Of a stretch of 36,163 nucleotides of DNA, positions 16,075-20,674 are shown in pieces. The stretch covers positions 1 through 36,163 of the forward strand of contig JACREX010000035.1 of assembly GCA_016212695.1 (NCBI GenBank). Reading direction: 5' to 3'. The translations under genes and the position numbers were made by a program. The stretch is from Bacteroidia bacterium (GTDB lineage Bacteria > Bacteroidota > Bacteroidia > Bacteroidales > GWF2-35-48). Under the pieces are notes generated by a model. The model saw only the letters and a program-made list of their open reading frames with translations, ran no database searches and had not been told where the DNA came from. The first letter of the stretch is position 1. The number at the start of each line of letters is the position of its first letter.

Positions 16075-17514
16075 TTATATTTTCAATTTATTTTCAATTT
16101 CATCAATATAAACCCTGAAGGTTTTATCCGTATCAATCAAATTGTTTACTGTTTTGCAGGCATGAAGCACGGTTGCATGATCTTTCCCTCCAATATTGGA
16201 TCCGATGGTTGCAAGGGATGCTTTGGTAAGGCTCTTTGCAAAGAACATGGCGATCTGGCGGGCTTGAACGATTTCTCGTTTTCTTGTTTTGGATGTAAAA
16301 GTATCCATAGGAAGGTTGAAATAGTCGCACACCACTTTCTGAATATAATCGATAGAAATTTCCCGTTTGGTATTTTTAACAAGTTTGTCAATCATCTGCT
16401 TTGCAAGATCCAGCGTAATCTCTTTTCTATTCAGAGTAGACTGTGCCAGCAGGGATATTAATGCACCTTCGAGTTCCCGGACATTTGTGGAAATATGTGA
16501 AGCAATATATTCGGTGACTTCAAGCGGAAGTTCGATACCGTCGTTATAGGTTTTTTTCCTGAGGATAGAAATCCTGGTTTCATAATCGGGAATCTGAAGG
16601 TCTGCAGCCAGGCCCCATTTGAATCGTGAAAGCAATCTTTGTTCCAGGCCCTGCATTTCTACCGGCGGTTTATCAGATGTGAGTATAAGTTGCTTTCCGG
16701 ATTGATGAAGGTGATTGAATATCTGGAAAAAGATATCCTGTGTTTTTTCTTTTCCGGCAAACTCATGAACATCATCAATGATGAGCACATCAATCATCTG
16801 GTAGAAATGAATGAAATCATTTCTGGTATTGTTGCGTGAAGCTTCTGTATATTGTGTTTGAAAATTATGCGCGGTAACATACAAGACCGTTTTGTCAGGC
16901 ATTTTTTCTTTCACTTCAATACCTATAGCCTGAGCTAAGTGTGTTTTTCCCAGGCCGGATCCGCCATAGATCAGGAGGGGATTAAATGCTGTGCCTCCAG
17001 GATTATTGGCAACCGCATACCCGGCAGATCGTGCAAGACGATTGCATTCGCCCTCAATAAAATTTGCGAATGAATATTCCGGATTCAGTTGGGGATCGAC
17101 TGTGAGCTTTTTCAAGCCGGGAATAATAAACGGATTCTTAATTCCAGGATTATCATCTATGCTAAGCGGAATGGAAACCGGTTTGTTTTTCAGTTCTTTC
17201 TTGATGTTCGCTGAACCCGGCATTTTCACAGTATATGGTTGTTTGCTGAAAAACGGATTGTTTTCCATCACAACATTATATTCAAGTTTAGCATCGGAGC
17301 CAAGTTCTTTGCACAATGTTTTCTTTAAAAGATCTATGTAGTGTTCTTCTAAATATTCATAAAAGAAAAGACTCGGCACCTGGATCGTAAGAATATTGCT
17401 TTCAAGTTTGAGAGGGATAATCGGTTCAAACCATGTTTTAAAAGTTATAGTCTGTACATTATCTTTTATTATCTGGAGACAATTATTCCATACCTCTTCA
17501 TGATTCTTACCCAT
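16075..17514 (-). CDS. dnaA: Chromosomal replication initiator protein DnaA
   Basis: Walker A GGSGLGKTHLAQAIG, Walker B VLIIDDVHEF, domain IV signature GGKDHATVLHACKTV. Confidence 0.98.
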   Translation of the reverse strand: MGKNHEEVWNNCLQIIKDNVQTITFKTWFEPIIPLKLESNILTIQVPSLFFYEYLEEHYIDLLKKTLCKELGSDAKLEYNVVMENNPFFSKQPYTVKMPGSANIKKELKNKPVSIPLSIDDNPGIKNPFIIPGLKKLTVDPQLNPEYSFANFIEGECNRLARSAGYAVANNPGGTAFNPLLIYGGSGLGKTHLAQAIGIEVKEKMPDKTVLYVTAHNFQTQYTEASRNNTRNDFIHFYQMIDVLIIDDVHEFAGKEKTQDIFFQIFNHLHQSGKQLILTSDKPPVEMQGLEQRLLSRFKWGLAADLQIPDYETRISILRKKTYNDGIELPLEVTEYIASHISTNVRELEGALISLLAQSTLNRKEITLDLAKQMIDKLVKNTKREISIDYIQKVVCDYFNLPMDTFTSKTRKREIVQARQIAMFFAKSLTKASLATIGSNIGGKDHATVLHACKTVNNLIDTDKTFRVYIDEIENKLKI

Positions 17515-17736
17515 TTTGTATTAATATTTTTAAAAAGTATCGTTTTTTTCTTAGTTCTTCGGACAATATTGTTATAAAAAAACTGAAAAAAAAATAATTT
17601 TACTCTTGTATATTTCAAAAAAAGTATATTCGTTTTACTGTCAGGCGAATAATTTTTTATAATTCAATATTTTTTATAACTTTTTGAATTTCTGAAAATT
17701 AACAATTCTCTGTTAATTGTCAAGTATTTCTTCAAA

Positions 17737-17948
17737 TTATCAACAATAACCTGTTCAAAAATAGTAAATTGTTAATAACTTTGGATTTCCTGTTTTTTAA
17801 TCAAACTTAGTTTTCACAATGAAAAGAACAAGGTCGTAAATTTAATAATATCTAAATTATAAACAAATTTTATTAACAATTATTTTTATTATTTTTTAAT
17901 ATTTCTTTCAGCCTCTCTCAAATTACTGTTTAAAATCACTTATGAACA
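17737..17948. other. Candidate replication origin: cluster of DnaA-box-like TTATNAACA motifs
   Basis: TTATCAACA 17737-17745(+), TGTTAATAA 17770-17778 (TTATTAACA on -), TTATAAACA 17857-17865(+), TTATTAACA 17870-17878(+), TTATGAACA 17940-17948(+). Flanked by a very AT-rich stretch (17515-17700) upstream of dnaA. Confidence 0.5.
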
Positions 17949-17973
17949 GACACTTACTGCAACTTTTAACAAA

Positions 17974-20373
17974 TTATTTACCCTTACAGGTTTTACAGTA
18001 AAGCTCTTTTACATCTGTGTTTTCAAAAATCTGAAAAGTCATCCGGGTATCGCTGATAATTTTACAGAAACGATCAAAATCCAGTTCTTTAGCTTTTTTC
18101 ATAGCATTTAAAAACAGAGACGTATTAAGCCGTTGCGTGGTTTTAGAGCACAGAGCAATGTATGTAAAAACTAATTCGTCGAAAACATTATCTTCTTCGA
18201 TAAAGGGTTCAACTAATTTAATGGCAAAATCATAATCCTTTTGTGCAATAAACATGTATGCAAGTTTTAATGAACTCTGCCAGTTTCCATCGTTCACATT
18301 CACGATTTTCTTAATCTTCTCTAAGCTGGCAACCATCTTGGGATGCGGAGTGGCAAGAGAATCGTAGGCATGAATAATTTTAAACTGATATTCGATGTTC
18401 AGGTTATCAATCGTTGGTTTGCTTAGTGTTGAAGAATACAGGCCATCTATGAGCTTCTGCCTTTCCTGAACTAATTTTTCATTGCCAAGTTCACCATTCA
18501 CAATTTCGCAATATAAATAATTATACAGTATGTATGGATTGGAAGGATCAAGCTGCGTGTATTTGCCGATCTGATCATAATAATATTTATTCAGATCGCT
18601 GTTTTTTACATACCTTTCAAGCCAGAGTTTGTTCATAAGCAGGCCTGCAAAATCTTTCTCCAACGGAATATCCATATTGGTTACAGTTTGTGAATTGTAT
18701 TTTTTTCTAAGAACTTTCTTAAAAATAAATTTCTGTACCGAAAGCGCCATGGGCAGGTCGCGCCTCTTCACGGCTTTATTAAACATGCTTACGGCAAAGG
18801 GTTGTTCTTTTTCTCCTCCGATATCATAGGTTACTTTCATCACAACTTCAGCATATCGTTCTTTTGCCAATATAGGCTCCAGTTCTTCATGAATTTTATT
18901 CTCCCGGATAAAGTCCTGTGCTTCCTGAAGGGTTTTATCAGCTAAGTCGGCATACTTGGTTTCTTTAATGTCTTTTTGAAACAGCTCCCAGTTATCTTTT
19001 GTAAGGATAGCGGGAATGATCTTGGTTTTCTGGCGCGATTCAAGCACTTTCAGAATACTCTGAGCCCTGTCTTTCTGCAACTGTGCATTTCGTTCCTCGC
19101 TGCCTTCGATAGATGAATACGCCGTAATCTTCACCTCGTTAATGATATAATCCGGTTCCTTCAGTTGCTTTAAAAGCGGCTCAACATCCTGCGATTTATA
19201 ATCTACCTTACTTTTTTCAAAAGGAATTTTAAATGTAATTATCGAAGAGGTAACAGAGGGTTCAAATTTCGTAGTTCCGCTGATTGTAATGGTATCGGCA
19301 AGCAGTTCGACTTTATTGGAATACTCCAGCCCCGCATCAATTACATAGGATCTTGCAATGTTTCTGCATACGCGTTGTTCTTTTATTATCAGAAGATTTA
19401 ATTCATACTCTCCTTTAATGCCCTCGGGAAATTTTCCGATCTTTACTTCCAGTTCATCTCTTTTTTTATCTTTATTCAGGTTTTTCTTGAAAAGTCTCCG
19501 GCTCCACATTCTATTAACAATAATGCCTTTGTTTACAAGATTGTTGTCTACGATATTCTCGCCGGTGCATGGATATTGATCTTTCTGTACCACTTCCACG
19601 GCAATTCCGTCTTTGGGATCGCGAAGCAGACGGGTAAGATTTTTGAGCCGGTTGCATTTAAAATATATGAATCCATCCCTTACGGATAAACCTTTCTGCA
19701 GGTCAACCATATTTCTGAAGTCGTTACATTTTCTGCAAATTTTATCTTCAAAAGGCATCAGGCCCCAAAGCCTTGTAGTATAAGGAACATCCATTTCTCC
19801 CCTCCTGTTGGCGCCTGCATTTAACGACTTATAATTTCCCAGCACTGCCGACACATAAAGTTTCTTTCCTTTTTTATCAATCTTACAACCTATACCGATA
19901 AATATATAGTCGGGATTTAAAAAAACATCCATGTTTTTCTTGTTGCTCTGCCATTTAAAAACAATGTTGTAAGCAAGTTCTTTGTATGATAAATTCATAT
20001 CGCCTTTTTTCAAGGGTTCTTTTGTAACTAATTCCTGGGCATACACAGAGCCTCCATAAAAAATCATCCGGTCTTCGGTGGTTTTCTTTTTTTGGCTGCC
20101 CTGCTCCAATACGGCATCCTCGATTTCTGCCATAAATTCAGCCTGATCTTCGGCTGCCATTTTTAATATTTTATGAACCCTGAGTTCTTCATGGTTATTA
20201 AATGCAAGTTGTTTATTTATCCCCTGAAGGATGAGACCGGCAAGCGAATCGTTATTAAAAAACCTAAGGTCTATCGCTTCCGACTGCTTTGAAGATTGTT
20301 CCTGTGGATATGTCAAAAATGCAGACAGGATCAAGAAAAGCGATACATATATTTTAAGAAGGCTCTTAGCCAT
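17974..20373 (-). CDS. Secreted/envelope protein with N-terminal CAP/SCP-like domain, OmpA-like segment and helical TPR-like C-terminus
   Basis: Met at 20373 gives signal peptide MAKSLLKIYVSLFLILSAFLTYPQ. CAP-like: LRVHKILKMAAEDQAEFM...YKELAYNIVFKWQSNKKNMDVFLNPDYIFIGIGCKIDKKGKKLYVSAVLG. OmpA-like: EVKITAYSSIEGSEERNAQLQKDRAQSILKVLESR. Confidence 0.7.
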   Translation of the reverse strand: MAKSLLKIYVSLFLILSAFLTYPQEQSSKQSEAIDLRFFNNDSLAGLILQGINKQLAFNNHEELRVHKILKMAAEDQAEFMAEIEDAVLEQGSQKKKTTEDRMIFYGGSVYAQELVTKEPLKKGDMNLSYKELAYNIVFKWQSNKKNMDVFLNPDYIFIGIGCKIDKKGKKLYVSAVLGNYKSLNAGANRRGEMDVPYTTRLWGLMPFEDKICRKCNDFRNMVDLQKGLSVRDGFIYFKCNRLKNLTRLLRDPKDGIAVEVVQKDQYPCTGENIVDNNLVNKGIIVNRMWSRRLFKKNLNKDKKRDELEVKIGKFPEGIKGEYELNLLIIKEQRVCRNIARSYVIDAGLEYSNKVELLADTITISGTTKFEPSVTSSIITFKIPFEKSKVDYKSQDVEPLLKQLKEPDYIINEVKITAYSSIEGSEERNAQLQKDRAQSILKVLESRQKTKIIPAILTKDNWELFQKDIKETKYADLADKTLQEAQDFIRENKIHEELEPILAKERYAEVVMKVTYDIGGEKEQPFAVSMFNKAVKRRDLPMALSVQKFIFKKVLRKKYNSQTVTNMDIPLEKDFAGLLMNKLWLERYVKNSDLNKYYYDQIGKYTQLDPSNPYILYNYLYCEIVNGELGNEKLVQERQKLIDGLYSSTLSKPTIDNLNIEYQFKIIHAYDSLATPHPKMVASLEKIKKIVNVNDGNWQSSLKLAYMFIAQKDYDFAIKLVEPFIEEDNVFDELVFTYIALCSKTTQRLNTSLFLNAMKKAKELDFDRFCKIISDTRMTFQIFENTDVKELYCKTCKGK

Positions 20374-20674
20374 ACATTCCAAATTATTCCATTAAAATAA
20401 GTTTACCAAAGTAGTAAATTTTTTATTTCAACAGAAAATATTTTTTATGTAAAATATTTTTTAAATACCGGATTTTTCATTCAGATGTTAACCAAATAAA
20501 CTCATTATAAATTTGATTATACATTATATTATATATGCAACCCGGGTTAACCATTAAAATTTTTTCAATCACACCAAAAAGCAGATATGATTGCTAATTA
20601 TTGTTAAAGTTTTGTTAATCTTTTTTAAATTCGCTTAAATAAAGACTATCTTTGAAACCGATAAGCCGGATACC

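Follow-up and report, generated by a model that had tools for sequence, protein, structure and literature searches.

The intergenic region upstream of dnaA in a Bacteroidales MAG was found to hold five TTATNAACA sites. This five-site cluster is real, and it is conserved in a sister species while the surrounding DNA has diverged, with four of the five predicted boxes kept. The five sites are probably DnaA boxes in the dnaA control region, by which DnaA would control the expression of its own gene. The window, namely the whole 36,163-bp stretch of DNA that was analysed, is the entire contig C200 of a 4.03-Mb, 259-contig, 90.5% complete MAG (G000), and, judged by DnaA, its closest named relatives are Bacteroidales MAGs. 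The features of the locus are listed in Table 1.

Table 1. Features of the dnaA locus in the window and of the nadA/rpiB gap in the sister species (G001)
Feature	Position	Strand	Remarks
dnaA, chromosomal replication initiator	16075..17514	-	TIGR00362 DnaA, 505 bits
dnaA upstream gap	17515-17973		459 bp, 80% AT; separates the dnaA start codon from the next gene
Double T-tract promoter-like element of dnaA (predicted)	17561..17609	-	ends in a TTTG-like motif; stretch read earlier as a DUE
Predicted DnaA box TTATCAACA	17737..17745	+	TTATNAACA match; TTATTAACA in the sister species
Degenerate box TTTTGAACA	17752..17760	-	counterpart in the sister species is TTATAAACA
Predicted DnaA box TTATTAACA	17770..17778	-	same in the sister species, inside an unbroken conserved run
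Predicted DnaA box TTATAAACA	17857..17865	+	same in the sister species
Predicted DnaA box TTATTAACA	17870..17878	+	same in the sister species; spaced 13 bp from the 17857 box in both
Box TTATGAACA	17940..17948	+	TTATNAACA match; without box conservation in the sister species
Next gene beyond the gap	17974-20382	-	
Sister-species nadA/rpiB gap	C39:76042-76761		skew -0.032 to the left, +0.099 to the right (8 kb)

The TTATNAACA cluster upstream of dnaA

A sequence-only reading of the window had reported five motifs upstream of dnaA, four of them in one orientation, beside an AT-rich stretch. All of this was borne out: five TTATNAACA sites lie at 17737-17948, four face one way and one the other, and an AT-rich stretch adjoins them. 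The difference from the canonical box was likewise as described, since A, not C, stands at position 6 in 5/5 sites, and none of them fits the E. coli-type box TTATnCACA, which has C at that position. The same reading expected well under one such motif by chance. Dinucleotide shuffles of the gap itself gave an expectation of 0.14 compared to the 5 seen, and 0/20,000 shuffles of the 459-bp gap reached five. Only two further TTATNAACA sites occur elsewhere in the 36-kb window, of which the dnaA gap holds the sole cluster. Across the MAG, the total number of TTATNAACA sites was 545, compared to 549 for the reversed control, and there is no genome-wide excess; the unusual feature is the local clustering, not the total number of TTATNAACA. 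As a separate observation, TTATNCACA was counted 230 times across the MAG and its reversed control 110 times, an approximately twofold difference unlike the result for TTATNAACA.

The sister species belongs to the same genus, and its DnaA is 93% identical to that of the window. Its dnaA gap contains six TTATNAACA sites, the sole cluster of three or more within 230 kb, and the two dnaA gaps, with 5 and 6 boxes, are the densest box clusters seen in the genus. Conservation in relatives had been proposed as a check, and 4/5 window boxes are indeed boxes at the matching places in the sister species, one of them with TTATTAACA for TTATCAACA. In the alignment upstream of the promoter block, 43/45 box columns were identical, compared to 158/300 of the other columns; the aligner may favour the pairing of repeats, so that the box-column identity is possibly somewhat inflated. 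When the boxes were placed at random, conservation as high was reached in 0/20,000 placements (p about 5e-5). An Rfam search at the dnaA locus returned no match.

A probable group-specific DnaA box

We regard it as very probable that TTATNAACA is the DnaA box of the Bacteroidales, with C6 changed to A; TTATTAACA is its commonest form. In 105 dnaA upstream regions outside the genus, TTATNAACA was found 44 times compared to 8.6 expected, TTTTNCACA 20 times compared to 7.9, and TTATNCACA 7 times compared to 2.8. Most single changes at other motif positions weakened or abolished the excess upstream of dnaA. Furthermore, 29 TTATNAACA sites were present in the 4 kb upstream of ruvB, where 7.2 were expected. 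Clusters were also sought in 4.37 Mb, roughly half of which is distant from dnaA and ruvB, and 16 TTATNAACA clusters (some duplicates) were obtained, compared to 0-4 for each of 11 control motifs. All of them lay upstream of dnaA or around ruvB/nadA. Similar motif density in other AT-rich intergenic regions had been named as evidence that would speak against the reading, and no TTATNAACA cluster was seen in these 4.4 Mb beyond the dnaA upstream regions and the origin surroundings. Since TTATNAACA is concentrated at skew-defined origins and upstream of dnaA, as expected of a DnaA box, it is taken to be one.

These observations also bear on whether an AT-rich gap may simply happen to hold the motif. 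The motif is common and shows no genome-wide excess, which would agree with chance; nevertheless, the local shuffles, the control motifs, the footprint between species and the co-location with origins make this explanation highly improbable.

In E. coli DnaA, Arg399 reads TTA and the helix 434-451 reads TnCACA, and the T435M protein is defective (PMC5742627). The window DnaA keeps Arg399 and has Ala in place of Thr435 (E. coli numbering), and Ala was found at position 435 in 97/99 DnaA proteins readable there. Arg399 kept together with Ala435 fits a box shift confined to the TnCACA half, and the change of T435 to A in the recognition helix is perhaps linked to the A at box position 6.

GC skew and the position of dnaA

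The cluster had been read as a candidate oriC. A DnaA-box cluster is there, and its spelling is common to skew-defined origins, but the locus lies neither at a GC-skew minimum nor at a strand-polarity switch. The skew step across dnaA was +0.009 in the window (8 kb each side) and +0.038 in the sister species, and at 21 other dnaA loci it had a mean of -0.006 (sd 0.054). Moreover, the cumulative skew continues to fall past dnaA in both the window and the sister species, and in G025 the skew is positive over 100 kb either side of dnaA. The fourfold-site, strand-corrected skew showed no switch at dnaA either, with a per-20-kb noise too high to locate the origin. Strand bias had been put forward as weakly compatible with an origin here; the genes to the left are mostly on the minus strand as described, but those to the right lie on both strands, and the GC skew shows no change from one side of the locus to the other.

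The closed relatives gave the same answer. In G189 (3.196 Mb), the skew, sampled in 20-kb stretches, was positive over the first 1.65 Mb or so and negative beyond, suggesting that the origin is near 0 and that dnaA (1.339 Mb) is within one replichore. In G245 (5.269 Mb), the skew minimum was near 2.395 Mb and dnaA was at 0.346 Mb. The distance from dnaA to the skew minimum in these two closed Bacteroidales chromosomes is about 1.3 and 2.0 Mb, which is the outcome that the sequence-only reading itself had named as counting against an origin at dnaA. An oriC at dnaA was rejected on the skew of the window, the sister species, the 21 loci and the closed relatives. A Prevotella paper describes oriC as commonly far from dnaA in Bacteroidetes (PMC4755523).

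The probable origin neighbourhood beside nadA, rpiB and ruvB

The Bacteroidales chromosomal origin most likely lies in the intergenic region beside rpiB, nadA and ruvB; for the window species this is drawn from its relatives. At the G245 skew minimum, a box cluster (TTATTCACA, TTATCCACA and two TTATTAACA) adjoins ruvB, and near the G189 minimum five TTATNMACA sites lie within 740 bp, at nadA and ruvB. When the ruvB surroundings of 18 further genomes were inspected, several had rpiB on one side of a gap and nadA or a response regulator on the other, followed by ruvB, and a skew flip at the gap. In G017 six TTATTAACA occupy this gap at its skew switch. Among ten nadA/rpiB/ruvB loci, including that of the sister species, a skew step of +0.07 to +0.30 was seen in 9/10; it was absent in G025. 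The nadA/rpiB region of the sister species is on a different contig from dnaA, with one exact TTATNAACA inside the gap and one at the rpiB start, fewer than in its dnaA gap. The skew of this species is noisy, and a larger step (25 kb each side) occurs at C105:148 kb, where no box cluster is present.

In the window MAG (90.5% complete), nadA gave no match with the query that finds nadA in the sister species. No rpiB ortholog was found there either, only a 41% paralog, with the sister-species RpiB protein as a query that finds its own gene. With no nadA or rpiB ortholog in the MAG, its origin region would be missing from the assembly, lost or rearranged. The MAG ruvB contig is rearranged and no TTATNAACA adjoins ruvB; ruvB alone was therefore rejected as an origin marker for the MAG. 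Clusters of TTATCCACA were also discarded as origin markers, none being among the matches listed for the window genome, the sister species and Labilibaculum.

An origin that has moved beside dnaA in the window genus, where DnaA would oligomerise on the boxes and the AT-rich stretch would be the DUE, would agree with the densest box clusters of the genus being at dnaA, with the rearranged, boxless state of the ancestral ruvB neighbourhood in the MAG, and with the MAG being without nadA and an rpiB ortholog. However, we consider it quite unlikely. Neither the window nor the sister species has a skew switch at dnaA, and in both the cumulative skew keeps falling past it. The sister species retains nadA/rpiB with a skew flip on another contig. 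The closed relatives have dnaA far from the origin, and the AT-rich stretch is common to relatives in which dnaA lies away from the origin.

Two side observations were made at these loci. At five skew-defined origins beside nadA/ruvB (L252, L246, L250, L243 and L151), AACAGC or a near form precedes an (ATC/ATT)n run that adjoins the last box, and this run may be the unwinding element of Bacteroidales origins. The B. subtilis DnaA-trio was rejected as a match, since the (ATC)n repeat order differs from the TA(A/G) trio. In the sister species, a purH-like/ruvB divergent gap (L242 9600-10153, C39) holds three TTATNAACA about 61 kb from the inferred nadA/rpiB origin; these boxes are possibly a relic or another DnaA-bound site.

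The T-tract promoter-like element

The supposed DUE most likely represents a conserved promoter-like element of dnaA. The AT-richness on which the DUE claim drew is indeed present, but the T-tract part of it is a promoter-like element kept at dnaA loci that are not origins. In this element, a CAA(G/T)AG-like motif is separated by a spacer from a long T-tract; a second T-tract follows after a short spacer, and a further spacer leads to a TTTG-like end. The first tract is T8-10 and, after 2-6 bases, the second is T5-9, then comes the TTTG-like end; CAA(G/T)AG usually precedes. The T-tract part was found in 55/107 dnaA upstream regions of Bacteroidota from several families, compared to 2.0 in shuffles. 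In the window it lies 47-95 bp upstream of the dnaA start codon, between the boxes and the gene. Since it ends in a sequence similar to TAnnTTTG, the Bacteroides -7 element (PMC7366714), it is read as the predicted dnaA promoter. A sigma-70 scan of the locus gave 8 sites compared to 4.0 expected, the sigma-70 model being uninformative for Bacteroidales.

Discussion

We favour the five sites as DnaA boxes of a dnaA control region. Conserved boxes upstream of dnaA, as an autoregulated region would have, are present. DnaA would bind these boxes, which lie 223-434 bp ahead of the dnaA start codon, probably cooperatively in view of their closeness. Bound DnaA would then set the output of the T-tract promoter-like element, most likely by repression, as a negative feedback on DnaA supply. 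Chromosome replication would start at the rpiB/nadA/ruvB intergenic region, from boxes spelled in the same way. At dnaA, however, the boxes are placed ahead of the promoter-like element and do not cover it, which counts against this reading of the cluster as a control region. The binding of DnaA and the sign of its effect on dnaA are deductions. Several bacteria are known to autoregulate dnaA through DnaA (PMC8203912).

The cluster may instead be mainly a DnaA-titrating site, a datA-like sink that lowers free DnaA and stands beside dnaA by chance. Titration by box clusters has reportedly been discussed for E. coli, and the boxes here are tightly packed and conserved. We regard this as unlikely, since the box enrichment follows the dnaA upstream region from family to family, which a free-standing sink would not need, and the cluster holds only a few of the several hundred boxes that the genome has.

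Finding DnaA boxes at dnaA is nothing unusual; the possible new part is the spelling of the box in this order, together with its origin neighbourhood. An exact-word literature search, covering few subscription journals, found no description of either for Bacteroidales. We are modestly inclined to a wider reading, in which Bacteroidales, perhaps all Bacteroidota, would have a shifted box, TTATNAACA, coupled to the change of T435 to A, and would use it in two places: a conserved nadA/rpiB/ruvB origin far from dnaA, and a dnaA promoter under DnaA control.

The Bacteroidales are a major group in the gut and in sediments, and most predictions of their origins rely on E. coli boxes. If the shifted box is true, origin finders tuned to TTATCCACA would miss or misplace these origins, and the habit of putting oriC next to dnaA in Bacteroidales genomes is corrected. 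The group-specific box, the origin neighbourhood and the promoter-like element offer concrete targets that can be tested in work on replication control, in estimating growth rates from read depth and in building origin-based plasmids.

Lineage-specific DnaA boxes, whose consensus is shifted from TTATCCACA lineage-wide, occur for example in Epsilonproteobacteria and Thermotoga. Compared with these, the shift here affects position 6 (C to A) and goes with a DnaA that keeps Arg399 and has Ala435. The oriC beside dnaA of the E. coli type, with its DUE, likewise has clustered boxes adjoining an AT-rich stretch (PMC5742627). However, the window locus is without a skew switch and the minimum of its relatives is beside nadA/rpiB/ruvB, and the AT-rich part of the window is a promoter-like element common to relatives with dnaA off the origin. 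The DnaA-autoregulated dnaA promoters (E. coli dnaAp1/p2, B. subtilis, Streptomyces and mycobacteria; PMC8203912) likewise have boxes upstream of dnaA, near a conserved promoter-like element. The window differs from them in that its boxes are TTATNAACA and not TTATCCACA, that they lie 130-385 bp upstream of the promoter-like element, and that its dnaA locus is not at the origin.
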